This document shows positions 4,051 through 41,054 of a stretch of 64,000 nucleotides of DNA, one piece after another. The DNA lies in the NCBI GenBank assembly GCA_019638775.1, contig JAHBTD010000003.1:62001-126000 (forward strand), given 5' to 3'. Origin of the DNA: Fimbriimonadaceae bacterium. Lineage in GTDB: Bacteria > Armatimonadota > Fimbriimonadia > Fimbriimonadales > Fimbriimonadaceae. A program made the position numbers and the translations under genes. Positions within the stretch are counted from its first letter, which is position 1. The number at the start of each line of letters is the position of its first letter. The notes under the pieces are model-generated. The model saw only the letters and a list, made by a program, of their open reading frames with translations. It had not been told where the DNA came from and searched no databases.

Positions 4051-7000
4051 TCAATCCATCTTCCCGAGAAGGATCTCAATCGCCTTATCGAGCTGAGGAT
4101 CACGTCCCGCGAGATAGTCCTCGTAGGTGAGTGGGACGTTAACGTCCGGCATCTGTCCGAGGTTCTCCATTGGCGAGCCGTCCATCCGGTACGAGCCCGA
4201 GTTTGGCATTCGTGCGCTGGTTCCGTCGATCAATCGCAAGCCGTACGTCCAGATCACGTATCCCGGCGTTTGGACGCCAACCAGCGTGGCCAGCTTCCTT
4301 GCCTTCATTGCGGCGGGGAACATCTCGGCATTTGAGAAGCTAGTCTCGGCATGCATCACGACCGTTGGGATGTTCCAACTATTCGCGGGAGCAAGGCCTG
4401 CTTCCTGATCTCGAGCTTGATAGTAGCTATGGGGCACTCGCTCGAGCATGTCCACAAGCGAGTCGGCGATATTGCCGCCTCCGTTGTTGCGAACGTCGAT
4501 GATGGCGGCCTTCTTGCCGTCGATAAACTCCCAAGCCTCGCGGTTGAAGGTCGTGAAGTTGTTTCCACCCATGCCGGAGATGTGGAAGTAAGCGATCCTT
4601 CCGCCTGACTTCTCCTCGACATACTTTTGCCGATCTTCGATACGGTTGCGATATTGGATGCCGTTCCAGGCTCCACCAGACAGCGCACGGTACTTCACCT
4701 CACGCGCGCCCGATTTGGTGGGGGTCTTGTTCACGAGGAGCGTAATGTCTCGTCCATCTTGGGCGTTGAGCACGTCTCGGAACAGCGCTTCGTTTGCTGA
4801 AACGTCGGTTCCATTGATCGCCATCACATACTCCCCTGCGCCGAGCTTTGTCTTCGCGTAGCTTCCAGGAGCGTAGCGGGGGACCTCGGCAATCTTGATT
4901 CCGGGGCCACTGTAGGAGTAGTCAATCGTGAACCCTGGGTGCGCCGAATTCTCCCCTTGAGGGTTGCCCGGCGCGGGACCGACTTCAGAGTGCGAAGATT
5001 CTAGTTCGCCGACCATCATGTTCAGGACCGTCGCGAACTCATTTCGGTGTCCCACCGAGGACAGCATCGGTTCGTACCGCTTACGTAAAGCCATCCAATC
5101 GCGCCCGTGCATGTTCGGGTCGTAGAATCGGCTGTTGAAGTTGCGCCAGAACTGCGAGAATGCGGCTTGGCGCTCTTTGCGTACGTCGCGAGACCAGTCG
5201 GCACGAAACTCGACCTGTGACACTTGGAACTGCGGCGGCTTTGGGTTCAACAAAGAGATGTTTCCACCCTTGACCAGCAGGAACTGCGAGTAGTCCGCAT
5301 TGGGCTCGAAAGATTGAAGCCCTCCGCCCTGGCTGATGCGTCGAACTTCACTGCCATCGTAGCTTGCCATCCACACATCGCCCTCACTTCGGAAGTAGAG
5401 AGTTCCGTTCTCCGGGTTCATTCGCAGGTTGCCCTGGGGTGATTGCGAAATCACTCGACGCATACGGCGATGGATGTCATCAAAGTCGATGTCCACCTTG
5501 ACGGCTTCCTTCGGCTTTTCATATTTGAGCTCCAGTTCGGTCTCACGAGCATCTTCGGCTTTGAGTGGAAGCGCGTAAATCGCGGACCCTCCGTCTCGAT
5601 TTGAACTGAAGAAGAGGTATCGACCATCGGGCGACCAAAGAGGATCGCCGTGTTGGGCGTTGAGCCGAGTTACGTTGATCTCTTTTCCAGTCGTGCTGTC
5701 AAAAATCCAGATGTTGACGGGCGGCGCCATGTTAATGACGGTTCCGCCTGTTTGCCGCGAGTACGCAAGATAGCGTCCATCGGGCGACCAAGCGTAAGGT
5801 GTTCCGACGCTCGATTGACTTCCGGTGATCTTCTTGGGGGCTCCGCCAGCGACAAGCGCTCCGTAAAGGCCGCCATTCGTGCCGGTTTGCCACCAATAGA
5901 CCGATTTCTTGTCGGGCGAGAGTGTGACCACGGATACGTCAGAGCCAGGAGCGCTCACAGCGGTGACGGCCTTGGTCGCGACGTCCATTCGATAAAGTCG
6001 GTCGCTGTCCTCTCTGTCTGAAGTGAAGAAAATGCTCTTACCATCGGGAGTCCAGAGGGGCTCTTGATCGGAGCCTGCCCAGTCCGTAAGCTGGGTCGCA
6101 TCATTGGCGTTTGGCCCCTTGCCCTTCTTCACGGGGACGGTCCAAATCTCTCCCCGCACCGTAAACGCGACTTTGTCGCTGGCTGGGTTCAGTGCGGCGT
6201 CGGAGACGCCATCGGTGAGGATCAATCGCTCTTGGTAGTTGACCTTATCGTCGGTCGAGGCGATGATATCAATTTTCTTGGGCTCACCACCTGGCGTCAT
6301 TGTATACACGTAGCCCTCGTATTCGAAGGCAGCAGTTCCGGCGTTGCGGGCGACACTGAGATAGCGCACTCCCCCGCCAACGAAGTTTGTCATGCGTACC
6401 GTGCGTCCGTTAAGGTCGATCTTGTAAACGTTCGGTGTTCGGTTGACGTTATCGACGTTCTTCGGAATCGGCTTGTCCAGGAAGCTAGCGCTGGGCGTCT
6501 TCTCGCTGACCGTAACTGTCATGAGAGACTTGCCGTCGGGGTTGAAACCAGCCCAAAGATGTTGAAACTGATTGTCGCGGAGGGCCCTTGCCTTTTTGCT
6601 CGTCGTATCAAAGAGCCAGAGCGCTGAAGCTCCTGTTCCTTGGTAGCGCGCTCGGTACCAGGGGAAACCGTTTCGGTTATAAGCGACCATCGTGCCGTCA
6701 TTTGACATGATGGGGTTACGCACCGTCGTCTGGTCGATCAGGAACCTTGCAAAGGCTCCCGTTCGCACATCTAAAGAGAAGAGGCCGTTGTCTTGAGCAT
6801 CACGAGTGGAGCGGAAAAGCAACTGCTTTCCGTCTGGAGTCCAATCGCTGGCGACATCGCTTCCCGCAAACCAGGTGAGGCGTCGGCTCTCGCCACCATC
6901 TGCTGGCACCACGTAGATATCGTCTGCGCCGTTGCGGTTCGTTGAAAACGCGATCCACTTGCCATCCGGCGACCAGATAGGGTTGTCGTCCATCTCGATA

Positions 7001-7215
7001 TGGGTGGTTACGGGGACCGCTCTGCCGCCTTCGCTTGAAACGACCCACACGTCGCCGAGGTAGGAGAATGCAACGCGTGTGCCGTCGGGGCTGATCGAGA
7101 TCGACCGTGCGCCAAGAATATTTTTCGGCTTGGGATCGCCAAGCTGTCGTGCATCACTCGACGCCGATAGGGCAAGTGCGGGCACGAGGATAAGGCTTAA
7201 ATACTTCGGTTTCAT
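4051..7215 (-). CDS. tricorn-like protease (beta-propeller + PDZ + S41 peptidase)
   Basis: 1054 residues. A signal peptide (MKPKYLSLILVPALALSASS) is followed by many TolB/WD40-like blades (repeated SPDGxxIAFSxxRxG), then a helical region, a PDZ-like segment (GAGEYVMAINGTDVSANEALF) and a C-terminal S41 catalytic domain. IIDVRNNGGGNI and ETSFSNAE carry the S41 hallmarks; Ser961 in FSNAE is the likely nucleophile. The architecture matches tricorn, a large peptidase that trims oligopeptides. The signal peptide implies action in the periplasm. The open frame extends upstream to 7353, but only the ATG at 7215 gives a signal peptide. It follows a secreted protein gene by 47 bases on the same strand, probably one transcript. 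Confidence 0.9.
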   Translation of the reverse strand: MKPKYLSLILVPALALSASSDARQLGDPKPKNILGARSISISPDGTRVAFSYLGDVWVVSSEGGRAVPVTTHIEMDDNPIWSPDGKWIAFSTNRNGADDIYVVPADGGESRRLTWFAGSDVASDWTPDGKQLLFRSTRDAQDNGLFSLDVRTGAFARFLIDQTTVRNPIMSNDGTMVAYNRNGFPWYRARYQGTGASALWLFDTTSKKARALRDNQFQHLWAGFNPDGKSLMTVTVSEKTPSASFLDKPIPKNVDNVNRTPNVYKIDLNGRTVRMTNFVGGGVRYLSVARNAGTAAFEYEGYVYTMTPGGEPKKIDIIASTDDKVNYQERLILTDGVSDAALNPASDKVAFTVRGEIWTVPVKKGKGPNANDATQLTDWAGSDQEPLWTPDGKSIFFTSDREDSDRLYRMDVATKAVTAVSAPGSDVSVVTLSPDKKSVYWWQTGTNGGLYGALVAGGAPKKITGSQSSVGTPYAWSPDGRYLAYSRQTGGTVINMAPPVNIWIFDSTTGKEINVTRLNAQHGDPLWSPDGRYLFFSSNRDGGSAIYALPLKAEDARETELELKYEKPKEAVKVDIDFDDIHRRMRRVISQSPQGNLRMNPENGTLYFRSEGDVWMASYDGSEVRRISQGGGLQSFEPNADYSQFLLVKGGNISLLNPKPPQFQVSQVEFRADWSRDVRKERQAAFSQFWRNFNSRFYDPNMHGRDWMALRKRYEPMLSSVGHRNEFATVLNMMVGELESSHSEVGPAPGNPQGENSAHPGFTIDYSYSGPGIKIAEVPRYAPGSYAKTKLGAGEYVMAINGTDVSANEALFRDVLNAQDGRDITLLVNKTPTKSGAREVKYRALSGGAWNGIQYRNRIEDRQKYVEEKSGGRIAYFHISGMGGNNFTTFNREAWEFIDGKKAAIIDVRNNGGGNIADSLVDMLERVPHSYYQARDQEAGLAPANSWNIPTVVMHAETSFSNAEMFPAAMKARKLATLVGVQTPGYVIWTYGLRLIDGTSARMPNSGSYRMDGSPMENLGQMPDVNVPLTYEDYLAGRDPQLDKAIEILLGKMD

Positions 7216-7262
7216 AGGCTGACCGCCGCTATATACGGAGATGAGCCTGTAGATTACTTCAT

Positions 7263-8192
7263 CTATTTGGCGATGCGGATCGAGTTCAAAACCCAGTCGG
7301 CGATATTCGCACCCGCCGCATCGGCCTTCTTTCGCGCGATGAGGACGCGCCAAGTCTCATCGCCTCTAACCAAAAGCAGAGCCGAGAAAGCGCCTTCGCT
7401 AGAGGCGAGACGAAACTCGTAGTCGATGCGGACTCCATCAATTCCAGACATTTTGACTGGCTGAATCGCTTTTCGGAAGATGTCGGCATCTGTAGGGATT
7501 CCCAAATCGGCATCGACGCCCGCGATCTGCTTGGCCAAGTCCGGGCCTTGACCCTTCACGGTCTCAATTTCGGTGACTGTGACAATGGCAGCATCGGTGA
7601 CGGATGTGAATGTCGACAAGCGATAGGCGTTCGGAACGCTTCCAAACGAGATGTCGGGTTCGTTGGGTAGGGATACGGTTACTTTCGAGTTCTTGAGCTG
7701 TTGGCTACGCCAGCTTGCAGGAGAAGTAAGCGCGACTGTGGCAGAGTCCAAGATCGCATCGCGGGCCTTTGCCGCGGTCAAGGCCTTTACTCGGGCAAGG
7801 ATGCGCCAGGATTTTTCGCCTGCCTGAATGTAAAGACCCGAAGCAAGCTGCCCCCGAGAAAACCGTCGTGCTTGGAGTCCGCTCACGCTCACAGGTCTGA
7901 ACGTCGGTTTAAGGTCAGCCGCGCCCGGAAGAAGGTCGGCAGCGGCCCGCGATGAAAACTCGATATCGGTAAGAACGCCTGCCGGAGCTTCGCGGTAAGT
8001 GACAATCACGTCCACCCCTTGAACCGAGAAGTTGTAAGTTTGGTTGTTATCGGAAGAGCCTTCTGCAAGTTTAAGCTCAACCGTGGGCAGGCTCAGCGTG
8101 AGTCCAGTCGTTCCGACCTTCTTCGCGCTCATCGCGGTTCCTGCCTGACCCATGCCAAGCACAACCGTTGCAACCATCCAAGAAACAGCCAT
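7263..8192 (-). CDS. secreted protein of unknown function with two similar halves
   Basis: 309 residues starting with a hydrophobic signal peptide (MAVSWMVATVVLGMGQAGTAMSA). I recognise no family. The two halves look related: each has a SLP-x-E segment near its start (LTLSLPTVELKL; VTVSLPNEPDISF), a V-(S/T)-V-T-(Y/E) strand, a ROAR-like R(R/I) strand and a closing SW/TWR(I/V)L(I/A)AR strand followed by an A-rich helix (SWRILARVKAL; TWRVLIARKKA). This suggests duplication of a domain of about 150 residues, possibly of the PsbP/Mog1 type, but that is a guess. It is the first gene of a two-gene unit with the tricorn-like protease, so may assist or supply it. Leaderless start. Confidence 0.75.
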   Translation of the reverse strand: MAVSWMVATVVLGMGQAGTAMSAKKVGTTGLTLSLPTVELKLAEGSSDNNQTYNFSVQGVDVIVTYREAPAGVLTDIEFSSRAAADLLPGAADLKPTFRPVSVSGLQARRFSRGQLASGLYIQAGEKSWRILARVKALTAAKARDAILDSATVALTSPASWRSQQLKNSKVTVSLPNEPDISFGSVPNAYRLSTFTSVTDAAIVTVTEIETVKGQGPDLAKQIAGVDADLGIPTDADIFRKAIQPVKMSGIDGVRIDYEFRLASSEGAFSALLLVRGDETWRVLIARKKADAAGANIADWVLNSIRIAK

Positions 8193-8198
8193 AGTCGT

Positions 8199-8204
8199 AT
8201 TTTA
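8199..8204 (-). promoter_or_regulatory. -10 box TAAAAT of the 8192 gene, leaderless
   Basis: On the minus strand TAAAAT is followed by ACGACT and then the ATG at 8192, a six-base gap with no ribosome binding site. The region is divergent with rfbA, whose own box lies at 8251. Confidence 0.55.
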
Positions 8205-8250
8205 TTGACGTTCGAGACCCCTAAGTGTTCGGGATCGGGACTTTGCGAGC

Positions 8251-8256
8251 CAAAAT
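8251..8256 (+). promoter_or_regulatory. -10-like box CAAAAT of rfbA
   Basis: CAAAAT, GATGCTC, then ATG at 8264: a seven-base gap. The same CAAAAT variant precedes the MPG glycosylase start at 50897. This supports the third of the three nearby ATG codons as the real start. Confidence 0.4.
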
Positions 8257-8263
8257 GATGCTC

Positions 8264-9142
8264 ATGGCTGCAAACAGAAAGGGGATCATTCTTGCCGGTG
8301 GATCGGGCACGAGGCTGTATCCGCTCACGATGGGGGTGAGCAAGCAGCTCATGCCGATTTACAACAAGCCGATGATCTACTTTCCGCTGACAACGCTCAT
8401 GCTGGCGGGCTTGCGAGAGGTTCTGATCATCACGACACCGCACGATCAGGCCGCTTTTCAAGCCGTTTTGGGCGACGGCTCGCAGTGGGGAATCCAGATT
8501 GAATATGCCGTCCAGCCCAACCCAGGAGGCTTGGCTCAAGCCTTCTTGATTGGAAAGGAGTTCGTTGGAGATGGCTCCGCGACGTTGATTCTTGGAGACA
8601 ATATCTTTTATGGGCATGGGTTGGTGGAGATGGTTCAGCGGGCCAACGCACAACCTTCGGGGGCAACTGTCTTTGCTTATTGGGTAAACAATCCGTCCGA
8701 GTATGGAGTGGTTGCGTTCGACGAGTCGATGAAGGCGACGAGTATTGAGGAGAAGCCTGCCGAGCCGAAGTCGAACTATGCGGTGACGGGGCTCTATTTC
8801 TATGATAATTCCGTGCTCGACGTCGCCGCTAACTTAAGACCGTCGCCGCGTGGTGAGCTTGAAATCACCGACGTCAACCGTGAGTTTCTGACGCGCGGGC
8901 AGCTTCAGGTTGAGATCATGGGCCGGGGGTTTGCCTGGCTCGATACGGGCACCCACGAGTCGCTCCTTGAGGCCGCAAACTTCGTGCAGACGATCGAGAA
9001 GCGTCAGGGGTTGATGATGGCCTGCCCTGAGGAGATTGCCTATCGGCAAGGCTACATTTCGCTTGACGACGTAGCTAAGCTCGCAGAACCGATGCGCAAA
9101 AATCCTTACGGGCAGTATTTGATGGGCTTGATCAAGCGTTGA
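8264..9142 (+). CDS. rfbA: glucose-1-phosphate thymidylyltransferase
   Basis: 292 residues, the usual RmlA length. It couples glucose-1-phosphate and dTTP to dTDP-glucose, the first step to dTDP-rhamnose for surface polysaccharide. The nucleotide-binding start [17 protein letters not shown], the [16 protein letters not shown] block, [10 protein letters not shown] and [20 protein letters not shown] are all canonical. In-frame ATGs at 8255 and 8258 would add a few residues; the ATG at 8264 places MAANRKGI as the N terminus, as in homologues. The other rml genes are not in the window. Confidence 0.95.
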
Positions 9143-9188
9143 TGCGCAGGTTGTGGGACCCGGTTGCAATCTGACCCTTCAGTGGGCT

Positions 9189-9194
9189 TAAACT
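9189..9194 (+). promoter_or_regulatory. -10 box TAAACT of pheS
   Basis: TAAACT lies ten bases before the ATG at 9205, predicting a leader of only a few bases. TTGCAA at 9164-9169 could serve as -35 with a 19-base spacer. Confidence 0.45.
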
Positions 9195-9204
9195 TAGCCC
9201 GCGC

Positions 9205-10203
9205 ATGCAATCGATTGAATCCCTCGAAAAGGAAGCAGCCTCTGCAATAGAGGCGGCAACGACGACCTCTGAACTCCGCGATGCGGAGATCAAATATCTC
9301 GGCAAGAGCGGTCTGCTGACCGGCTTGATGCGCAACATTGGCCAATTGCCACCCGAGGAAAAGCCGCTGTTTGGCAAGAAGGTCAACGAGGCTAAAGCAC
9401 GCCTTGAGGAGATTTTGGAAGGCCGGATGTCGGCGCTCAAACGAGCTGAGCAGAGTCAAGCGTTTGAGTCGGAGAGAATCGACATCACCATGCCGAGCCG
9501 CAAAGCAAATGGGGGCATGGAGCACATTCTTCGGCGGACCGAAGAGCGCATTCGCGAGGTTTTTGTTGGGCTTGGGTTCGAGTGTTACGACGGTCCTGAG
9601 CTTGAGGAGTTTCGATACAACTTCGACGCGCTGAACTATCCGCCCGATCATCCAGCGATGGATGAGCAGGACACCTTTTATGTGACCGATCGTAAGGTTC
9701 TCCGCACCCAATGCACCGCCATTCAGGGTCGCGTCTTCGAGAAGAAGAAGCCGCCACTCCGCTACTTCACGGTAGGCCGCACCTATCGGAACGAAGCGGT
9801 AGACCGCACACATTCACACACCTTCCACCAAGTTGACGCATTTATGGTTGACGAGGGGATTTCCATGGCGCACCTCAAGGGCACGCTTGGGGCATTTGCG
9901 CGGGCGATGTTTGGCGACGATGTGAACATCCGCTTTCGGCCCGACTTTTTCCCGTTCGTGGAGCCGGGCGTGGATTATGCGATCTCAACTCCCAAGCTTT
10001 TTAACGGCCGATGGGTCGAGCTTGGCGGCGCGGGCTTGATCCATCCGAACATCCTTGAGGCTTACGGGATCGACTCTGAGAAGTACAGTGGGTTTGCTTT
10101 TGGGCTTGGCGTTGAGCGCATCCCGATGATGCAGTACGGGATCGACGATCTGCGGCACTTTATGGAGAACGATCTGCGGTTCTTGGAGCAGTTTCAAGCG
10201 TGA
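9205..10203 (+). CDS. pheS: phenylalanyl-tRNA synthetase alpha subunit
   Basis: 332 residues. A helical N-terminal coiled-coil arm (residues 1-90, with LGKSGLLTGLMRNIG) contacts tRNA; the class II catalytic core follows. Motif 2 is seen as RYFTVGRTYRNEAVDRTHSHTFHQVD and motif 3 as GFAFGLGVERIPMMQYGIDDLR. It makes Phe-tRNA as an alpha2beta2 enzyme with PheT. Unusually, pheT is not adjacent: it lies at 36243-38300 on the other strand, 26 kb away, so the two subunits are expressed from separate promoters. Confidence 0.97.
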   Translation: MQSIESLEKEAASAIEAATTTSELRDAEIKYLGKSGLLTGLMRNIGQLPPEEKPLFGKKVNEAKARLEEILEGRMSALKRAEQSQAFESERIDITMPSRKANGGMEHILRRTEERIREVFVGLGFECYDGPELEEFRYNFDALNYPPDHPAMDEQDTFYVTDRKVLRTQCTAIQGRVFEKKKPPLRYFTVGRTYRNEAVDRTHSHTFHQVDAFMVDEGISMAHLKGTLGAFARAMFGDDVNIRFRPDFFPFVEPGVDYAISTPKLFNGRWVELGGAGLIHPNILEAYGIDSEKYSGFAFGLGVERIPMMQYGIDDLRHFMENDLRFLEQFQA

Positions 10204-10204
10204 G

Positions 10205-10250
10205 GGCCGAGGTCCGTGATCCGTAATCAGTGATCGGCGATCATCAATCT
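10205..10250. repeat. word-like degenerate repeat (GATCC/GTAATC/GATCGG)
   Basis: The short gap after pheS is built from variations on one word: GTGATCCGTAATCAGTGATC, then GGCGATCATCAATC and TACAATCAAC. It contains the near-palindrome TGATCGGCGATCA. It sits between convergent genes and may act as a terminator. Its style matches the gaps at 3926-4044 and 14322-14387. Confidence 0.35.
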
Positions 10251-11254
10251 ACAATCAACAGATTCTTGGGTGTGGCGAACAGCGTCACGGCCCCGCCGGT
10301 ATGCCAAAAGAGCACACGCCCCTTCAATTCGCCCTTGCCAACCATATCCATGAGCCCGGCAAAGGCTTTGCCGCTATAGGTCGGGTCCAACAAAATTCCT
10401 TCTGATCTCGCCACTTTCAGGATCGCCCGATTGCCTTCGGGGCTTGGGATCGAATATCCCTCGCCGAAGTAGTCCATGCGGAGGTCAAGGTCTTCGTAGC
10501 GGAGATTCTTGGGCTGTCCAGTGAGTTCGCCTAGCCCGATGGTAAGTTCGTGGACGTCGTGCTGGAGAACTTCATCGGGGTCGGGGTCGGCAGAGATGCC
10601 GATGACCTTCGTTGAGGAACCGGCAAAGGCAAAGGCGAGGCCCGCGTGGGTGCTTCCACTGCTGCTAGCAGTGACGATGGTATCGAACGGCTCTGCGCTT
10701 TGGGCCATGACCTCCTGAGCGGCAAGATAGAACGAGTAGGCCCCGAGAACGGAGCTGCCGCCGATCGGGATCTCAAATGTCTTCAACCCTATAGCTTGGT
10801 ACTCGTGAGCGATGGCTTCCGCATAAGCTTCGAGCTGATCCCAGTCGCCATCGGGGAAGAGGCGCACATCCATGCCAAAAATCTCATCGGCAAGCACGTT
10901 GCCGCCAGAGGAGTCGGGTACGTAGTCAATGGCAGGTCGACCAGCCGCTGCATAGTAAGGCAGCCCCATTACAGCGGCTGCGGAGCGAAGTCCGTATTTG
11001 GCGCATGCGGCGGCAAGCTGGCGAAGGAAGTTCGACTGTGATGCTCCCATCCCGACCACGACCTCCGCGCCTTGTCGAAGAGCTTCGGCGATCAAGAATT
11101 CGAGCTTGCGCCCTTTATTGCCGCCAAGTGCAAACCCGGTGAGATCATCGCGCTTGATCCACAGATCGATCCCCAGCTCTTTCGAAAGATTGGGAAGTGC
11201 GTGCAAAGGCGTTGGGGTGACGATCAGATCGACTTTTTCAGGGACCGTTGGCAC
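10244..11254 (-). CDS. PLP-dependent D-cysteine desulfhydrase / ACC deaminase family
   Basis: 336 residues, the usual family length. The PLP lysine is in ALGGNKGRKLEF and the phosphate-binding region resembles the tryptophan synthase beta fold (TASSSGSTHAGLAF). WIKRDDLTG and VGMGASQSNFLRQLAAAC are typical of this family. The enzyme should release pyruvate or 2-oxobutyrate, ammonia and possibly sulfide from D-cysteine or a related amino acid; the exact substrate cannot be read. The open frame continues upstream to 11383, but the GTG at 11254 matches homologues and avoids overlap with the divergent gene at 11335. Confidence 0.85.
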   Translation of the reverse strand: MPTVPEKVDLIVTPTPLHALPNLSKELGIDLWIKRDDLTGFALGGNKGRKLEFLIAEALRQGAEVVVGMGASQSNFLRQLAAACAKYGLRSAAAVMGLPYYAAAGRPAIDYVPDSSGGNVLADEIFGMDVRLFPDGDWDQLEAYAEAIAHEYQAIGLKTFEIPIGGSSVLGAYSFYLAAQEVMAQSAEPFDTIVTASSSGSTHAGLAFAFAGSSTKVIGISADPDPDEVLQHDVHELTIGLGELTGQPKNLRYEDLDLRMDYFGEGYSIPSPEGNRAILKVARSEGILLDPTYSGKAFAGLMDMVGKGELKGRVLFWHTGGAVTLFATPKNLLIVD

Positions 11255-11321
11255 ATCTTGATTATGACTTTCAGCCTGGGTGCTTGTGGGGGGACGGACC
11301 GGTGGTGAGCTACGGGCGTCA

Positions 11322-11327
11322 TAATCT
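11322..11327 (+). promoter_or_regulatory. -10 box TAATCT of the 11335 gene, leaderless
   Basis: TAATCT, then GATAGGT, then ATG at 11335: a seven-base gap. This chooses the first of two close ATGs (11335, 11344). Confidence 0.5.
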
Positions 11328-11334
11328 GATAGGT

Positions 11335-11877
11335 ATGGCAAAGATGAGTCGAGGAAAAAAATGGGGGATCGCGCTGGTTGCACTTGTCGCGATTGGAGTT
11401 TTGGTCGACCAGTTCACGCCAGCACGCGAAGCGTTCATCCTTTGGCGAGCAGGTTCCTTCGACAAAGCGGACAAGGTCAAATACAGGGGCGATCTCGAAG
11501 ACAGTCTTAAGAAACTGCGGGCCGCTTTAATGCTCTATCACGACAGCGAGGGCCAGTTCCCAGATGCGGCAGGCTGGATGGATGCCATTCGCAATCGGGT
11601 GCGCACTGGAAACATGGCGGATTCGGAGGCGATGAAGAAGTTTATGGACCCCTCAGCCCAAACGGGCGCGGAGGGTGTTTATGGAATCGCGATGAACGAC
11701 GCTTTCAGCGGTCAGTACATCGACGATGTAAAAGACCTCGACAAGACCCCCCTTCTTTTTGTGAGCTCAGATACAAAGTGGAATGCCCACGGAACGCCGG
11801 AAAAACTCCTGCCTAAGCCAGCCCGCGAAGCTGGCAACTGGGCGATCATGGTGGATGGGAAGATACTGGAGTTATGA
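11335..11877 (+). CDS. membrane-anchored pseudopilin-like protein
   Basis: 180 residues. A basic N terminus (MAKMSRGKKWG) and one hydrophobic helix (residues 9-24, IALVALVAIGVLVDQF) are followed by a soluble domain. The segment SLKKLRAALMLYHDSEGQFP resembles the alpha-helix and loop of GspG-type pseudopilin domains, and the rest (GVYGIAMNDAFSG; NWAIMVDGKILEL) fits a pilin-like beta sheet. There is no canonical prepilin cleavage site (G/FTLxE), so it is probably a fixed membrane-anchored relative. It overlaps the next gene by four bases (ATGA). Function unknown. Confidence 0.65.
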   Translation: MAKMSRGKKWGIALVALVAIGVLVDQFTPAREAFILWRAGSFDKADKVKYRGDLEDSLKKLRAALMLYHDSEGQFPDAAGWMDAIRNRVRTGNMADSEAMKKFMDPSAQTGAEGVYGIAMNDAFSGQYIDDVKDLDKTPLLFVSSDTKWNAHGTPEKLLPKPAREAGNWAIMVDGKILEL

Positions 11878-12284
11878 TTCAGCGAAGCGGTATCCAACGT
11901 GCGCGGGCCTTCGCTGTTCTCATGGCGTCTGCTTTGACGTTTATGATTGAGAAAAAGACGCCGCAGTTGGGGAGCGCATCGCTAACCGTAGGCGGGGTGA
12001 TTTCGGCGGTTCTGTTTGGGGTAGGGCTGTTGATTCTCCGATCTGATATGAAGACCTTTCGAGGCGCATTGCGGCTCAAGAGTGGCTTTATGATGGTGGG
12101 ATTCTCGTGGTTGATTGCCGCGCTCACAACGGCGATGGTTGTCCCTCTCGTATGGGCGGGGGCTCCAGCGATCTTTGCGGGCTGCGGTCTGGCAGCGATT
12201 GGATTCGCGGTCCAACTCACAACCTTGTATCTTCAAATCCGTCGTGGGACCCCTTCTCGGAAAGATGCGCCGGATCAGCTATAA
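11874..12284 (+). CDS. small membrane protein, about four transmembrane helices
   Basis: 136 residues, strongly hydrophobic, with helices near 12-25, 36-55, 70-90 and 97-120 and a polar tail (RRGTPSRKDAPDQL). No family recognised. ATGA overlap with the preceding gene shows co-translation. Its stop codon lies inside the TATAAT box of the following dehydrogenase gene. Confidence 0.65.
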   Translation: MIQRSGIQRARAFAVLMASALTFMIEKKTPQLGSASLTVGGVISAVLFGVGLLILRSDMKTFRGALRLKSGFMMVGFSWLIAALTTAMVVPLVWAGAPAIFAGCGLAAIGFAVQLTTLYLQIRRGTPSRKDAPDQL

Positions 12285-29627: not shown

Positions 29628-31040
29628 TTAACGAGACGCCTTCTCCCCGAACTCAATCAGAAACTCCGCCGATTGTGTAATCGCGTCGCTTGGCCCGAGC
29701 ATGGCATCAATCTCGGCAAACGCCTCTAGCTGATTCGTGCGAGTTTCACTATCTTTCAAGACAGCCAATAGCTTTTCGCGGATCGCAGCCCCGGTAGCGG
29801 CATATTGGATCAGTTCTGGCACAACTTCTCGGTCGAGGAGAATGTTGGGTTGAGAGATGTGCTTCACCTTGAAGCCGACCAGGCGGGCCTCTATCTCGGT
29901 GGTCTTTGAGATGCGATAAATGACGACGTGTGGGCATCCACAAAGGGCTGCTTCAAGGGTTGCCGTACCGCTGCAGACGATCCCTGCCCTTGCCTTCAGG
30001 AGGACCTGCGCGGTTTTGCCGACGATAAACTCGTCGTTTCTTCCGGGCGATAGCTTTGACCACCGACTTTGAAGGTCAACAAGGTCCAGGTTTGGAGATA
30101 CGGCAAAGGCGGCTGTTTCGGGCAGGTCCTTGAGCGCGTCGGAGATGGCTGGGAGGTTCTGCTCAATCTCGGCAACTCGGCTGCCGGGGAGAATGGCGAT
30201 GCCCTCCCGTTGATCTGTCGAGGGAGAGGAATGATGATCCGGCATCGACGGAGCGATGCCCTCCCGCTGCTCTCGCACGAGCTGTTTGAGCGGGTGCCCA
30301 AGGAAGTGGGCGTCCACGCCCATCTCCTTCAAAATCTCGGCAGACCAAGGAAACGGGGTAATTACTGCGTCGCAAAGATTCGGCAGGTCTTTGCCTTGCC
30401 GATCTTTGCGCCAGCTGCCTGGGGGAATAAAATAGATCACCTTCCATCCAGCTGCCTTCGCCTGCCGGGAGAGTCTTAGGTTGGCAAAGCCGAAGTCGAT
30501 GGGGATGAAGATGCCGGGCGGGCCTTCGTTCAGAGCGCGTACCGCCTTTCGGTATCCGGCAAGAACTCTGAAATACACACGGACGGCCTGCGTGATTCCA
30601 ATCGCTCCCCATTTGCGGGAGTCGGCGACGATCTGGACGCCTTCGTCGCGCATCTTGGCTCCTCCGATGCCTTCAAATCTTGCTGATATTGGGTTGCTCT
30701 TCGTTCGTCCGTCGGGAGGAAGTGCGCGGTTCTCAGCCTGGGCGACGAGGCGGTAAAGATCGCCGAAGGTGCGCAAGCCTGCTGCTTCCTTATCCGGGGC
30801 TTCAAAGCCGAGAACATTCTCGGCTTGCATGACCATCTCCATGGTATCGAGCGAATCGAGACCCTCAGCAATGAGCAACTCTTGGTCAGTTGGGGTTTGG
30901 CTCAAGCCCAACGCTTGGGCAACGCGGGTCCGGAAAGGATCGGCTTCTTCCATCGGCTGATTCAGCCGCTTCATCTCCCGCACAAGCGCGGCCCCGTATG
31001 CATCGCCGGAAGCCTCGCCTGCAGAAAGGAAGTACCTCAT
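29628..31040 (-). CDS. lpxB: lipid-A-disaccharide synthase with inserted ACP-like domain
   Basis: 470 residues against about 380 usual. LpxB joins UDP-diacylglucosamine and lipid X to the lipid A disaccharide at the inner membrane. The N terminus MRYFLSAGEASGDAYGAALV is canonical, as are FEGIGGAKM, IPIDFGFANL (catalytic-type Asp), FLGHPL, ILPGSRVAEIEQ and SGTATLEAALCGCPHVVIY. Between the first helix (REMKR, residue 25) and FEGIGG (residue 122) lies about 95 extra residues containing an acyl carrier protein-like domain (see 30732-30950). A second oddity is the linker before ILPGSR, where QREGIA occurs twice 19 residues apart. Start ATG overlaps the lpxA stop (ATGA). Last of fabZ-lpxA-lpxB. Confidence 0.9.
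   Translation of the reverse strand: MRYFLSAGEASGDAYGAALVREMKRLNQPMEEADPFRTRVAQALGLSQTPTDQELLIAEGLDSLDTMEMVMQAENVLGFEAPDKEAAGLRTFGDLYRLVAQAENRALPPDGRTKSNPISARFEGIGGAKMRDEGVQIVADSRKWGAIGITQAVRVYFRVLAGYRKAVRALNEGPPGIFIPIDFGFANLRLSRQAKAAGWKVIYFIPPGSWRKDRQGKDLPNLCDAVITPFPWSAEILKEMGVDAHFLGHPLKQLVREQREGIAPSMPDHHSSPSTDQREGIAILPGSRVAEIEQNLPAISDALKDLPETAAFAVSPNLDLVDLQSRWSKLSPGRNDEFIVGKTAQVLLKARAGIVCSGTATLEAALCGCPHVVIYRISKTTEIEARLVGFKVKHISQPNILLDREVVPELIQYAATGAAIREKLLAVLKDSETRTNQLEAFAEIDAMLGPSDAITQSAEFLIEFGEKASR
30732..30950 (-). other. acyl-carrier-protein-like domain inside LpxB
   Basis: Residues 31-103 of LpxB. Helix I FRTRVAQALGL, the loop, then AEGLDSLDTMEMVMQAENVL with Asp62-Ser63-Leu64, the phosphopantetheine attachment motif of ACP, then GFEAPDKEAAGLRTFGDLYRLV matching the acidic PDEEA.. 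T..D helix III/IV part of ACP. Compared with E. coli AcpP, DSLDT, E, VM, PD and EA are shared at equivalent places. The domain is in frame with no stop, so the host protein reads through. The serine codon is at 30852-30854. Confidence 0.88.
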
Positions 31041-32401: not shown

Positions 32402-34825
32402 ATGAAATCCTTACGGGTCCTCGCTGCCTTCTTGTGCCTGTTCTCAGGCTTTGCGATGGCCCAAGAACGTCAGAAGGTGATCGTGTGGGGAGTGAAGCTT
32501 GGCCCGACTACGAAGGGGCTTGAAGCAGTTGTCCGCGAGTTTGAGCGTCGAAATCCCGACGTCAAGCTGGTCGTAACCACGATGGGCGCGGGCGGAATGA
32601 ACCCGCAAAAGCTGATGACTGCCATCGTTGGAAAGGTGCCCCCCGACGTCATCGCCCAAGACCGCTTTACGCTTGCCGATTGGGCTAGCCGTGGCGCCTT
32701 CCAGCCGCTTGACGAACTCATCGCTCGCGATGCTGGCAAAGACCCTCTCACCCCCACGCCAGACCAGTTCTACACGCCCGCCTGGGATGAGGCGAAGTAC
32801 GACGGCAAAATCTATGGCATTCCCACGGAAGCCGACAACCGGATTCTCTACTACAACAAAGAGATCTTTCGCAAGAAAGCGAAGGAGCTCCGTGCGGCTG
32901 GGCTCGATCCCGACCGTGCGCCGAGAACGTGGTCGGAGATTCTGGCTTACTCCAAAGTTCTGACCGAATACAACAAAGACGGCTCGATCAAGATCGCCGG
33001 TTTTTTGCCCAACTACGGCAACGTTTGGCTCTACATGTACGCGTTCCAGAACAACGCAAACTTCATGAGCGCAGACGGTTCCACTTGCACCATGGCGACC
33101 CCCGAAGCTGCGGAGGCTTTGGCCTTTATGGTCAAAGGCTACGATGCAGTGGGCGGATATCAGAACGCGCTGAACTTTCAGAGCGGCTTCTTGAGCGACC
33201 TCAACGACTCTTTCGTCATCGGCAAAGTTGCGATGAAGATCGACGGTGAGTGGATTATCCGCAACCTCGCTCGGTACGGACCGAAGTTGGATTTTGGCGC
33301 GGCACCACCGCCCGTACCGGATGACCGCTTTCACAAGCGCGGAAGATTCGCCGACGAGCCCGATCAATTTGTGACCTGGATGGGCGGCTTTTCTTACGCC
33401 ATCCCGACGGGAGCGCGCAACCGCGACGGCGCATGGCGATTCATCAAATGGGCTACGAGCTTGGAGGGAAGGCTTGTCGATATGCGCGAGCAGAAAGCGT
33501 GGGAGACTCGGCTGGGCCGAGAGTACGTACCGCCGCTCTCAGCTCATATTCAGGCATCGGAGATCGGCGCAACGGAGTTCACACCAACCGACCCTCGAAT
33601 TCAGTCTGCAAAGAAACTGTCGGTTGAGCTTCAACCTTTCGCACGATACCGACCCAAGACAGTTGTTGCTCAGATGCTGTGGGATGAGCACGTGCGCGCT
33701 GTCGAGAACGCATGCCTCAAGAAGATGACGCCGATGGAGGCTCTTCAAAAGGGGCAGGACACCGTGAATCGCGAGCTAAAGGAGATTAACTCGCAAAAGG
33801 ATTACCCGGTGGTGAGCAGCAATCTGCCGGTTTGGATCGCCTCAACCGTGATCGCGCTAGCGATCATGGCAGGAGTTATCGCTTTCATGAGAAAGCGAAT
33901 CGGACGTCTTGAGCGAACCGAGGCAAAGTGGGCGTATTTCTTCATTTCTCCCTGGATTATCGGATTTCTGGTCCTGACAATCGGGCCGATGATCGCCTCG
34001 CTGTTCTACAGCTTCACGATGTGGAATGTCCTTGGAGAGGCTCACTGGGTGGGGGTCAAGAACTACGCGGACCTTGCTGGATACGACCGCGACAACGTAA
34101 CGAAGTCGCTCGCTAACGTCTTCTACCTGGGTGGGATTGGAGTTCCACTCAGCTTGATGACGGGCCTTGCTGTGGCGATGCTCCTCAACGCAGCGGTGCG
34201 GGGCATGCGGTTCTACCGGACGCTCTTTTACATGCCCTCCATCGTTCCAATTGTGGCCTCGGCAGTGTTGTGGGCATGGATCCTTGCAAGTGATCCAACC
34301 AAGGGGCTGATGAACTCGTGGTGGCAATCGACCATTGGGGAATGGTTTGGAACGACACCGCCCGGCTGGCTGAACGCCGAGACTTGGGCTAAGCCAGCCC
34401 TCATCGTTCAGGGGCTATGGGGAGCAGGCGGTGGCATGATTCTGTGGCTTGCTGGGCTGAAGGGCATCTCGAACACGCTCTATGAAGCCTCAAGCCTGGA
34501 CGGGGCTTCACCCACGAAACAGTTCTTCTTCGTAACACTCCCCCAACTTAGTCCGGTCATCTTTTTTAACACCGTGATGGGTTTTATTGGAGCCTTGCAA
34601 GAGTTCGACCGGGTTTACATCATGAAGCCAGCCGACTCTACTGGCGCGGGTCCTGCCGATTCACTGTTGGTGCCTGTGTATCTGCTTTTCACCAACGGCT
34701 TTAGCTACTTCAAGATGGGTTATGCCTCGGCAATCGCCTGGGGCATTTTTGCGGTGATTCTGATCTTGACGGGCATCCAGTTCAAGCTCGCTCCGAAGTG
34801 GGTTCACTATGAGGTGGAGAAGTAG
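32402..34825 (+). CDS. ABC transporter fusion: sugar-binding protein + MalF-type permease
   Basis: 807 residues. Signal peptide (residues 1-20), a family 1 extracellular solute-binding domain (about 25-455; VIVWGVK, FERRNPDVKLVV, VPPDVIAQD, YGIPTEADNRILYYNKEIF, WRFIKWATS), then an extra hydrophobic helix at about 477-496 followed by basic RKRIGRLER, then a complete MalF-like permease (about 505-807) with its EAA loop near residues 693-715 (EASSLDGASPTKQFFFVTLP). The extra helix brings the chain back to the cytoplasm, so the topology is consistent: binding domain tethered outside, permease inside the membrane. Neither a MalG-type partner nor an ATPase gene is next to it. TAGAAT lies 12 bases before ATG. 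Confidence 0.9.
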   Translation: MKSLRVLAAFLCLFSGFAMAQERQKVIVWGVKLGPTTKGLEAVVREFERRNPDVKLVVTTMGAGGMNPQKLMTAIVGKVPPDVIAQDRFTLADWASRGAFQPLDELIARDAGKDPLTPTPDQFYTPAWDEAKYDGKIYGIPTEADNRILYYNKEIFRKKAKELRAAGLDPDRAPRTWSEILAYSKVLTEYNKDGSIKIAGFLPNYGNVWLYMYAFQNNANFMSADGSTCTMATPEAAEALAFMVKGYDAVGGYQNALNFQSGFLSDLNDSFVIGKVAMKIDGEWIIRNLARYGPKLDFGAAPPPVPDDRFHKRGRFADEPDQFVTWMGGFSYAIPTGARNRDGAWRFIKWATSLEGRLVDMREQKAWETRLGREYVPPLSAHIQASEIGATEFTPTDPRIQSAKKLSVELQPFARYRPKTVVAQMLWDEHVRAVENACLKKMTPMEALQKGQDTVNRELKEINSQKDYPVVSSNLPVWIASTVIALAIMAGVIAFMRKRIGRLERTEAKWAYFFISPWIIGFLVLTIGPMIASLFYSFTMWNVLGEAHWVGVKNYADLAGYDRDNVTKSLANVFYLGGIGVPLSLMTGLAVAMLLNAAVRGMRFYRTLFYMPSIVPIVASAVLWAWILASDPTKGLMNSWWQSTIGEWFGTTPPGWLNAETWAKPALIVQGLWGAGGGMILWLAGLKGISNTLYEASSLDGASPTKQFFFVTLPQLSPVIFFNTVMGFIGALQEFDRVYIMKPADSTGAGPADSLLVPVYLLFTNGFSYFKMGYASAIAWGIFAVILILTGIQFKLAPKWVHYEVEK

Positions 34826-38416: not shown

Positions 38417-39727
38417 TTAAACGCGCGAAGATTCTATCGCCAAAATCGCGGTTTGAGCTGCGCTAAGGCTGAGGTTGTTGTCAACGGGTTTGATGGCCGA
38501 GATCGGCATTTGTCCGCCATCGCTGACAAGGCGTCCGGTTACCGCAATGTACTTGGTGCCGTTCTCGCGCTCGGAGAGGTGTACGTCGTCGATGAGCAGT
38601 TGTATTCCTGGCGTGAGCCGTTCGATGGCTTTGGCAGTCGCGTGAACCACCGATTCGACGACCGATCCGCCTGCCCTTGAGTGGACGCCGGAAGCGACGT
38701 CCGGGCCGCGGCTAAGCAAAACAGTTGTCAACCCTGCGGGGTTCGCCTCGTCGGCGAACACTTCATCAACTCGAATTCCAACCTCTGGAGTTTCGACGAT
38801 TGCTTCTTCTGGAGCGGCAGCTACGGCAAATCGTGGCTCTTCGGGGACGAATCCGTTCTTGAGCTTCTTGCGGTTTAGCTTGTCAACCTGACAGTCTTGG
38901 CTGGCGAGGTTGATGAGGTTGTCCAGTGTAGCAGCGTAGTGAATGCTTTCTCGCTCTTTGCTCCTACGTCCACCCGAGACACCCATCGAGAGTGAGATGG
39001 GTTCTTCGGCGTCGCTGATGTTGATAACGCGCACACGTTCGCGCACGGCTTCGGCGAACTCTTTTGCGGTGACTTGATAGCGGACTGTCGCAAGTACGAA
39101 TTCGTCGCCACCGTAACGTACGAGCAGGTCTCGGTCTTCGTCGATGAGTTCCCGAAGGCATTCGGCAACAACTTGAAGAACGCGGTCGCCTACGATGTGT
39201 CCGAACTTCTTGTTATACAGACCGAAGTCGTCGATATCGAGGAAGATGATGGTCAGCTCTTCGCTTTCTTTGAGGCGATCAATTCCCCAGTCACGGAGCC
39301 GGTCGCTCCAGGACAGGCCGGTAATCGGGTCCCACGTCCGGAGCAGTTCCTTGAGGAGCATTGTGGCAGTTGCTATACCAAGGTACTTTTCGCCAGCGAC
39401 AACAGGGGCAGAATCGAGATTCTGGGTATGGAATTCTTCGGCGAGACGCCGGATAGTCATCTCGCTATGTACGACGAAACCCGTGGGTCGCATGTAGTCG
39501 CTTACCTTTGCAAGTTCTGGGACATCTGCAGGTATATCATACAGCGAAAGAGCCCCGACGAGACGAACTCCGTCGAGGACAGCAATGGTACGCATATTGT
39601 GCCCTTGCAGCAGCAGCCTAGCGCTCGATATTAGGCTATCTGGATTGACCCAGACTGGCAAGAGCTTGAGCTCAGAAACGAGTTTCAATGCCGCACTTTT
39701 TTCTGTACTAAACCCAGATGAGCCCAC
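38417..39727 (-). CDS. CBS-pair diguanylate cyclase with unrecognised C-terminal domain
   Basis: 436 residues. Residues 15-130 form two CBS motifs (VNPDSLISSARLLLQGHNMRTIAVLD; VVHSEMTIRRLAEEFHTQNLDSAPVV) that usually bind adenine nucleotides. A GGDEF domain follows (DPITGL at 133; DIDDFGLYNKKFGHIVGD; GGDEF at 206-210), so it should make cyclic di-GMP. The residues where the RxxD inhibitory site belongs read EDRD, so product inhibition may be absent. After an acidic linker, residues 320-436 form an alpha/beta domain (ASGVHSRAGGSVVESVV; IAVTGRLVSDGG) I cannot place. GTG start four bases after TACCTT. Confidence 0.85.
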   Translation of the reverse strand: MGSSGFSTEKSAALKLVSELKLLPVWVNPDSLISSARLLLQGHNMRTIAVLDGVRLVGALSLYDIPADVPELAKVSDYMRPTGFVVHSEMTIRRLAEEFHTQNLDSAPVVAGEKYLGIATATMLLKELLRTWDPITGLSWSDRLRDWGIDRLKESEELTIIFLDIDDFGLYNKKFGHIVGDRVLQVVAECLRELIDEDRDLLVRYGGDEFVLATVRYQVTAKEFAEAVRERVRVINISDAEEPISLSMGVSGGRRSKERESIHYAATLDNLINLASQDCQVDKLNRKKLKNGFVPEEPRFAVAAAPEEAIVETPEVGIRVDEVFADEANPAGLTTVLLSRGPDVASGVHSRAGGSVVESVVHATAKAIERLTPGIQLLIDDVHLSERENGTKYIAVTGRLVSDGGQMPISAIKPVDNNLSLSAAQTAILAIESSRV

Positions 39728-39854: not shown

Positions 39855-40862
39855 CTATCTTTCAAGCTGAACGACTAACTCTCTGCTGGCCCGTTCGAGC
39901 CACTTTTGCTCAGCAGGATCGACGAGTAAACGACCAGAAAAGGCCTTCGCCCCAGCATAGGCGGCCGAAGGTTCGATTCGCATGGAACGCGCGGCATCCT
40001 CTTCGTTGAGGCAGGCAATTTTTAGCATCAAATACAGCGCAAGTTGGTCCGCCTCACGCTCCGAATCCATTTGGGACTTAGCGGATGAAACGATCGCATC
40101 GGCGAGATCCCAGTTCGGACAATCCGAGAAATAGGGGTTGAGCAGACCGCACGCGCGTATGACCTCGGCGTCGGAGAGCCAACGATTGCCGCTTAGCTTG
40201 AGGCGATTCAACGCTCCTTCGTAGGATCTGCCGTTGACGTCAAGCTTGCCGGCAAGTATGTTGCGCAGCGTGTCAGAAAGGACAAGCCCCTCCCGCTTTG
40301 CCATTGCATCGACGATAACCTGTCGCTCGGCCTTCTCCGGTTGACGAATGGAGGCAACTTGCCACTCTCGTAGGTTAGGGATCACTTGGGAGAAGTTGGC
40401 GGGGAGGCGCTCGCCGGTCAAACTAAGGAGAGTTGGCCACCCTGCCCTCAAGCGCCGCTCCAGCGCAAGCCGCAATTGCAAGCGCTGCCGAGTAAGGGAT
40501 AGGCAATCCTGAACGTGATCGAGAATCAACGGCGTGGATTGCATTCTCGACCAAAAGCCGGTGACCCACTCTGACGCGGAGAGAACGTGTACGTTCGAAC
40601 CTGGGAAGAGTTTGCGGTGGTGCATTGCCGCCGATTCGAGAAGGTGCGTCTTTCCCCACCCGCTTTGCCCGTGAAGAACGACAAAAGGGTTGAGTCCGTT
40701 TGCAAAAAGCAGAGCGGCCTCCACGGCGTCGACGTTCGAGGGCAGGACCGAGAAAGTTCTGAAGCCGTTCCGATCTGCGTTAAAGAGCACTTCGGACAGT
40801 CGCAACGGGGAAACATCTTGTTTTTTGGGACGCTCTTGAATCGTGGAATATGCGGTCATCAT
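39855..40862 (-). CDS. DnaA-like AAA+ ATPase (paralogue, divergent)
   Basis: 335 residues from the ATG at 40862. The core resembles DnaA domain III: NADRNGFRTFSVLPSNVDAVEAAL (as in DnaA FVVGPSN), Walker A GQSGWGKTHLL (about 65-72; DnaA has GGVGLGKTHLL), and a Walker B LILDHVQD where DnaA has LxIDDIQ, so the second Asp is His. The C-terminal helices (MDSEREADQLALYLMLKIACLNEEDAARSM) recall domain IV, but the DNA-binding signature of DnaA (GRDHTTV) is not present. It may be a Hda-like regulator of initiation or an unrelated recruiter. Upstream in-frame start at 40895 is less likely. Confidence 0.72.
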   Translation of the reverse strand: MMTAYSTIQERPKKQDVSPLRLSEVLFNADRNGFRTFSVLPSNVDAVEAALLFANGLNPFVVLHGQSGWGKTHLLESAAMHHRKLFPGSNVHVLSASEWVTGFWSRMQSTPLILDHVQDCLSLTRQRLQLRLALERRLRAGWPTLLSLTGERLPANFSQVIPNLREWQVASIRQPEKAERQVIVDAMAKREGLVLSDTLRNILAGKLDVNGRSYEGALNRLKLSGNRWLSDAEVIRACGLLNPYFSDCPNWDLADAIVSSAKSQMDSEREADQLALYLMLKIACLNEEDAARSMRIEPSAAYAGAKAFSGRLLVDPAEQKWLERASRELVVQLER

Positions 40863-41054
40863 ACTGCTCTGCCATCCCGAGGGTCGGCTAGTCAAGAGGT
40901 CTCAGCGCGTGCTTTCCTCTCCCCAGATAGTGATATTACAAAACAGCCGGGGGAATCAAGAGCAGATTATCCTGAAATAGAATCCCTTTTCTGAGTGGAT
41001 AGGGCAATATTCGCTCGTTTTCTACGGTTTTTATAATAATTTGAACTATGGAAG
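40863..41054. other. AT-rich intergenic region upstream of the DnaA-like gene
   Basis: About 190 bases without a gene. The part 40930-41050 is AT-rich (TTTTTATAATAATTTG at 41025-41042 is the most extreme) and contains TTATCCTGA at about 40968, one arm of a DnaA-box-like word. It holds the promoter of the DnaA-like gene, which I cannot place exactly. Confidence 0.4.

Follow-up and report, generated by a model that had tools for sequence, protein, structure and literature searches.

The window analyzed here is the whole stretch of 64,000 nucleotides at positions 62,001-126,000 (forward strand) of contig JAHBTD010000003.1, from the Fimbriimonadaceae bacterium assembly GCA_019638775.1. On its forward strand, an open reading frame at 32402-34825 starts with ATG, has no internal stop, and encodes 807 amino acids in which a sugar-binding protein (SBP), an extra membrane helix, and a MalF-type permease follow one another in a single chain. 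Upstream of this fusion gene, on the opposite strand, are a FabA/FabZ-like gene, lpxA and lpxB; downstream of it are a 458-aa ORF, for which Pfam gives no match at E 0.01, and pheT. The features of the fusion gene are as follows, all on the + strand.

32402-34825, +: the entire SBP-helix-MalF fusion gene, 807 aa plus stop (ORF, Pfam, relatives)
32402-32464, +: signal peptide region, residues 1-21, with the cleavage site judged by eye from the sequence
32465-33784, +: periplasmic CUT1-type sugar-binding domain, residues ~22-461 (PF01547 at 36-355; match to CpMnBP1, 4r9g)
33785-33904, +: linker of ~40 residues (462-501), missing in the unfused SBP and MalF relatives compared
33821-33892, +: extra membrane helix, residues 474-497, with a basic stretch after it (structure model and 80-row alignment)
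33905-34822, +: complete MalF-type permease domain, residues ~502-807 (PF00528 at 586-799; identity to unfused MalF)
34484-34555, +: putative EAA-type coupling loop, residues 695-718 (invariant columns in a 16-row and an 80-row alignment)

Two other places in the window have unusual genes. The LpxB-like protein at 29628-31040 (- strand), whose gene adjoins lpxA and the FabA/FabZ-like gene, contains, about 30 residues into LpxB, an inserted ACP-like domain that carries a DSL motif (PF00550, residues 37-99); in 21 genomes searched, three (this one, G074, and G102) align through the ACP-like domain, and the other 18 only from residue 92-124. And a CBS plus GGDEF protein at 38417-39727 (- strand) adjoins a DnaA-like ATPase at 39855-40895 (- strand).

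An earlier note on this DNA had read the chain as signal peptide, solute-binding domain, linker helix, and full permease, and that order is borne out by Pfam, by a structure model, and by the alignments. Both halves match Pfam above the curated cut-offs: SBP_bac_1 (PF01547) at residues 36-355 with an E-value of 1.4e-36, and BPD_transp_1 (PF00528) at residues 586-799 with an E-value of 4.3e-8. The permease domain also matches the UgpA and MalF models, with scores under their equivalog cut-offs. An AlphaFold2 model of the fusion built from 80 rows has a mean pLDDT of 86.7 and a pTM of 0.84, with the N-terminal helix (residues 2-14) at low confidence. In the structural comparison (VIA-align on the Foldseek top 1000), the SBP domain matches the mannotriose-bound CpMnBP1 (4r9g) with Z 38.0 and rmsd 2.9 over 384 residues (model residues 23-456), and the Bdellovibrio MalE domain 6ffl with Z 31.5 and rmsd 3.5 over 371 aligned residues at 21% identity. 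We take 6ffl to belong to the 2019 work of Licht and colleagues. The structural matches cover mainly residues 22-470, and the permease part was assessed by sequence. There, residues E695, A696, D700, G701, A702, T712, and P714 are invariant both in the 16-row and in the 80-row alignment; this loop (695-718) is presumably the one named the EAA-type loop.

The part of the chain that belongs to neither a binding protein nor a permease is the linker. In three sister operons with separate genes (L276, L296, and L299), the unfused SBP aligns to the fusion as far as residue 461 in the longest of the three cases, and the unfused MalF pairs from its own residue 3-12 onward with fusion residue 502-504 onward, at 40.9-42.7% identity. 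Because the SBP alignment stops by 461 and the MalF alignment starts at 502-504, residues 462-501 are extra to both parents. In the model, this region holds a helix of its own (474-497), which comes after the last SBP helix (444-463) and before the first permease helix (502-536). Across the 80 aligned rows, the stretch of residues 463-502 has 38-41 residues in every one, its best 19-mer hydropathy is at least 1.6 in 77 (the lowest value being 1.37), and the mean net charge is +3.1 for the columns of residues 494-508 and +0.3 for those of residues 462-476. A lipobox-like motif is found at the N terminus in seven of the 80 rows, and the window protein does not have it. The simplest reading is that the extra helix would be an outside-to-inside crossing that restores the cytoplasmic N terminus of MalF. 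Both the extra helix with its basic cytoplasmic end and the topological role that the earlier note gave to it hold up against Pfam, the model, the unfused operons, and the 80-row alignment.

How common is this arrangement? Matches to the fusion at E ≤ 1e-40, with partial matches counted, are present in 240 of 291 Armatimonadota genomes, this one included. When we count only near-full-length forms (spanning at least residues 25-790, with an open frame of at least 798 aa), we observe at least 150 rows in at least 139 of the 291 genomes, again including this one, and reaching down to 47% identity among the matches listed. One row, from G217, is interrupted by an in-frame TAG near residue 352. A scan of named genomes using two family-specific peptide patterns gave 127 confirmed relatives, and 80 of these were kept. 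The kept records have titles that stand for Armatimonadota or say plainly "bacterium," with one exception, L212 (JADZEW010000011.1), titled Methanoregulaceae archaeon; its content and its fusion locus are as in G129 of the window's family, and it is probably a mislabelled genome. The fusion is a phylum-wide family in Armatimonadota, and common there.

A count across the phylum had been proposed in the earlier note, where a frame error joining two genes, or separate genes in close relatives, were named as outcomes that would speak against a fusion. The frame is intact, and the close relatives among the matches listed are also fused. One can still imagine that a frame error, an assembly artifact, or a recent read-through joined two genes, and the unfused SBP and MalF genes of Sinorhizobium, 12 bp apart and in the same frame, are a pair that read-through alone could join. 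But a single frame recurring in at least 139 genomes and at such low identities, with a linker helix that the compared unfused relatives do not have and whose length is constant in 80 rows, makes the probability of such an accident negligible.

The Sinorhizobium pair came up as a candidate for a fusion outside the phylum, as a one-piece tblastn match over 98% of the query; in CP140955.1 it resolves into the two genes just described. In that plasmid search, 2408 records had a match. Even the best plasmid relatives from outside the phylum fall short of 60% identity, and those among the 15 listed are at 27.5-36.4%. The two out-of-phylum relatives examined, in Sinorhizobium and Allomeiothermus (2 of the 2408 plasmid records), are both separate genes. 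A seemingly split homolog within the named set, in L233, with SBP and permease in two ORFs, is a complete ordinary SBP-MalF-MalG operon that lies downstream of an intact fusion (L233:939-8074) and has 27.7% and 43.0% identity to the two fusion halves. This arrangement is a possible trace of the fusion having arisen by duplication.

The genome of the window carries a second SBP-MalF fusion, also of 807 aa (C1:1147835-1150255), and a second long MalG of 522 aa (C3:463486-465051). Outside family f1, the relatives of this second fusion and second MalG are neighbors (gap < 3 kb) in 34 of the 62 listed rows, lie apart in 25, and lack a listed partner in three; inside f1, none of the 67 listed rows has them as neighbors (65 apart, two with no listed partner). 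This genome, like all of family f1 as listed, has the second pair split, so the pairing rests on the other families. At one locus, L188 (G129:C11), 5022-11889, a single strand carries the first fusion, its MalG, and the second fusion consecutively. Taking as fused an open frame of about 800 aa or more, with the membrane pattern checked for all except one in G080, we count 6 fused among the 21 SBP_bac_1 proteins (22 matches) of G080, 3 among the 11 matches of G223, 1 among the 3 of G045, and 2 among the 6 of this genome.

Did the fusion arise once? In a tree of SBP domains, the fused ones fall in three clades among unfused ones; three changes are needed and the starred branches force three, with a long-branch warning from the tool. 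In the permease tree, the fused permeases also form three clades and three changes are needed, but only one is forced by starred branches. A tree that keeps all fused permeases in a single clade is disfavored (p-AU 0.041). For the window type, the first tree gives a grouping with unfused SBPs (100/99), and the second a grouping with three unfused MalF whose support, 93/86, is below the starred level. We consider more than one origin the better reading, which the trees favor without proving; a single gain with later losses of the fusion is the less favored alternative.

An importer would also need a second permease and an ATPase. The earlier note had remarked that neither a MalG nor an ATPase gene is adjacent, and this is true at this locus: ORFs and Pfam matches identify no MalG or MalK gene adjoining the fusion in the window. 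But the locus is an exception. Among the matches listed, we counted 137 rows from relatives, leaving out another 12. In 102 of the 137, MalG lies on the same strand within 600 bp after the fusion, and in 16 more it is 0.6-2.1 kb downstream, a total of 118; it is elsewhere in 17, and none is listed in two. For family f1, MalG is adjacent in 79 rows, apart in four, and without a listed partner in one. Similarly, a direct match to this MalG (malG1) is found at most 2.1 kb downstream in 62 of the 79 named loci, with the next commonest neighbor of the fusion clustered in 18. Of the 17 loci without a malG1 match, in L233 the one MalG is the ordinary one from its separate operon, and 16 gave none. 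Six of those 16 have less than 1.5 kb of sequence after the fusion, and at least four (L191, L192, L193, and L195) were missed by ORF calling, their counterparts G139, G140, G149, and G148 having malG1 adjacent.

A partner elsewhere in the genome, as the earlier note had suggested looking for, does turn up. It is a 578-aa MalG-type protein at C1:581821-583554, the ortholog of the MalG of the relatives, and its gene is followed directly by ftsY. Five distant loci (L169, L171, L237, L244, and L255) likewise have ftsY immediately following malG1 or no more than about 0.9 kb away, which suggests that in this genome malG1 probably kept its place while the fusion gene moved. This MalG is the likely partner of the fusion, a pairing suggested by the gene order of the relatives for two genes that are unlinked here. 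In two distant relatives, the space between the fusion and MalG has a recombinase-like ORF and a helix-turn-helix ORF, assigned by eye from sequence (L171:9715-11296 and L169:4141-5774). Very long MalG frames of 881, 1471, and 1951 aa, in G147, G148, and G149, looked like extra fusions; the G148 and G149 frames run back over the fusion gene.

As for the ATPase, a profile search of the genome gives one OB_MalK match above the cut-off, at C1:332301-332447, in a 378-aa protein that also has ABC_tran and TOBE domains. Its gene (C1:332.3 kb) is unlinked to the fusion. Ordinary permease pairs are found in the same genome at C1:713-717 kb, C1:959-962 kb, and C5:6-7.6 kb. The natural reading is that this single MalK would be shared among the sugar importers of the genome, the fusion importer presumably among them.

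The MalG proteins have additions of their own. A structure model of the window-type MalG from relative L197 (61 rows, pLDDT 84.9, pTM 0.64) has a core that matches MalG structures by Foldseek, five extra N-terminal helices, and, placed after the first core helix and before the second, two small beta units (~231-350) at high confidence. Relatives of about 350 aa lack the N-terminal extension. Second-type MalGs with an insertion of about 270-415 residues are seen at L179:3787-5664 (-), L181:8923-10914 (+), L189:8518-10404 (+), and, in this genome's own relative, L019:8484-10052 (-). The insertions of the first three match Glyco_hydro_42 (E-values of 4.6e-16, 2.4e-11, and 6.6e-10), in two or three repeats, and the match covers only profile positions 147-214 of 376 in the best stretch; judged from this coverage, the repeats are a sub-motif and no whole enzyme. 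In the second-type MalG of this genome, a profile search gives no Glyco_hydro_42 match under E 1. Both kinds of insertion would face the periplasm, where the SBP docks. A doubtful extension of this, which we think rather less likely than its opposite, is that Armatimonadota repeatedly turned free-SBP sugar importers into tethered ones, and that the MalG insertions (the two-part beta domain or the GH42-like repeats) serve as a dock or gate specific to the tethered domain, in place of the exchange of free SBPs.

With respect to the substrate, the evidence is of mixed direction. GH31 and GH13 relatives occur near the fusion in five of the 79 named loci, four of which also have a LacI-type regulator (one of each was confirmed by Pfam); the pair is missing from the other 74, on the locus DNA examined. 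The two unfused plasmid relatives examined adjoin amylo-alpha-1,6-glucosidase and GH13 genes. The closest solved SBP, CpMnBP1, binds manno-oligosaccharides, not alpha-glucans. The likeliest substrate would be an oligosaccharide; that it is an alpha-gluco-oligosaccharide has, in our estimation, a little under an even chance.

Putting these pieces together, we are rather confident that the fusion is the binding-protein/MalF subunit of a CUT1-family ABC sugar importer with a covalently tethered binding protein, where transport, assembly, and substrate are what we infer from the sequences. The signal peptide would export the N-terminal domain, and the extra helix would cross from periplasm to cytoplasm, placing the start of MalF on its usual cytoplasmic side. 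With a leash of about 10 residues, the SBP would dock on a heterodimer of the fusion MalF and the MalG of C1:581821-583554, and the MalK at C1:332.3 kb, which the other sugar importers of the genome probably share, would power the importer. Each complex would carry one permanently attached binding protein.

The gene standing alone in the window, with malG and malK not adjacent, and the 17 of 137 counted relatives that also have MalG elsewhere, could be taken to mean that the protein is a sensor or scavenging receptor, in which the SBP signals via the permease domain and there is no complete transporter. We find this quite unlikely, because the EAA-type loop residues, expected to couple to an ATPase, are invariant in 80 rows, because most counted relatives have MalG a short way downstream and this genome has retained it, and because Pfam identifies no signaling domain in the fusion. 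The chain might instead be made as one and be cut near the linker, to give a free binding protein and an ordinary MalF. Periplasmic proteases are general, but a linker that keeps a constant length in all 80 rows, and that is hydrophobic and then positively charged, is a better fit to a membrane anchor than to a cleavage spacer, and we regard cutting as improbable.

A free CUT1 binding protein has to find its transporter, release the sugar, and leave. A tethered one cannot leave, which would fix the stoichiometry at one per complex and makes the design a test of whether dissociation is needed. Several lineages keep the design in genomes that also have ordinary importers, which provides natural paired comparisons. 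And given that malG and malK can be unlinked from the SBP-permease gene, an importer that seems incomplete at one locus need not be so.

Canonical CUT1 importers (MalEFGK2, AlgM1M2, LpqY-SugABC, and the Sinorhizobium and Allomeiothermus relatives) likewise have an SBP_bac_1-type protein and two permeases, but their binding protein is separate, they have no extra helix, and their MalG is of ~270-305 aa as opposed to 578 aa here. The type I importers GlnPQ and OpuA, as far as the accounts we draw on describe them, also have the binding domain covalently linked to the permease, near the translocator. Their permease-SBD subunit occurs twice per complex, resulting in four (GlnPQ) or two (OpuA) binding domains, whereas the MalF/MalG heterodimer proposed here would carry one; that a distinct MalG is conserved close to the fusion argues for the heterodimer. 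The SBP family of the fusion we take to be different from theirs.

The earlier note had called binding-protein fusions not usual for MalF, which is fair in general; on the other hand, a MalE-MalF fusion in a maltose/maltodextrin importer has been published (Licht et al. 2019, Res Microbiol 170:1-12, cited in PMC7756565 and PMC9045158), and in Armatimonadota such a fusion is common. Going by the title of that report, its importer resembles ours in having the solute-binding domain fused to MalF in one chain, and differs from it in that here we have a phylum-wide family, several lineages, and a MalG with a periplasmic insertion. Among the open-licence papers listed, we found no published description of the fusion in Armatimonadota, and a term search of the F. 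ginsengisoli genome paper gives ABC gene counts with no mention of a fusion. The MalE-MalF fusion as such is thus, at the level of that title, already known; what looks new is its conservation throughout a phylum, the several fused lineages, and the MalG proteins with large periplasmic insertions.
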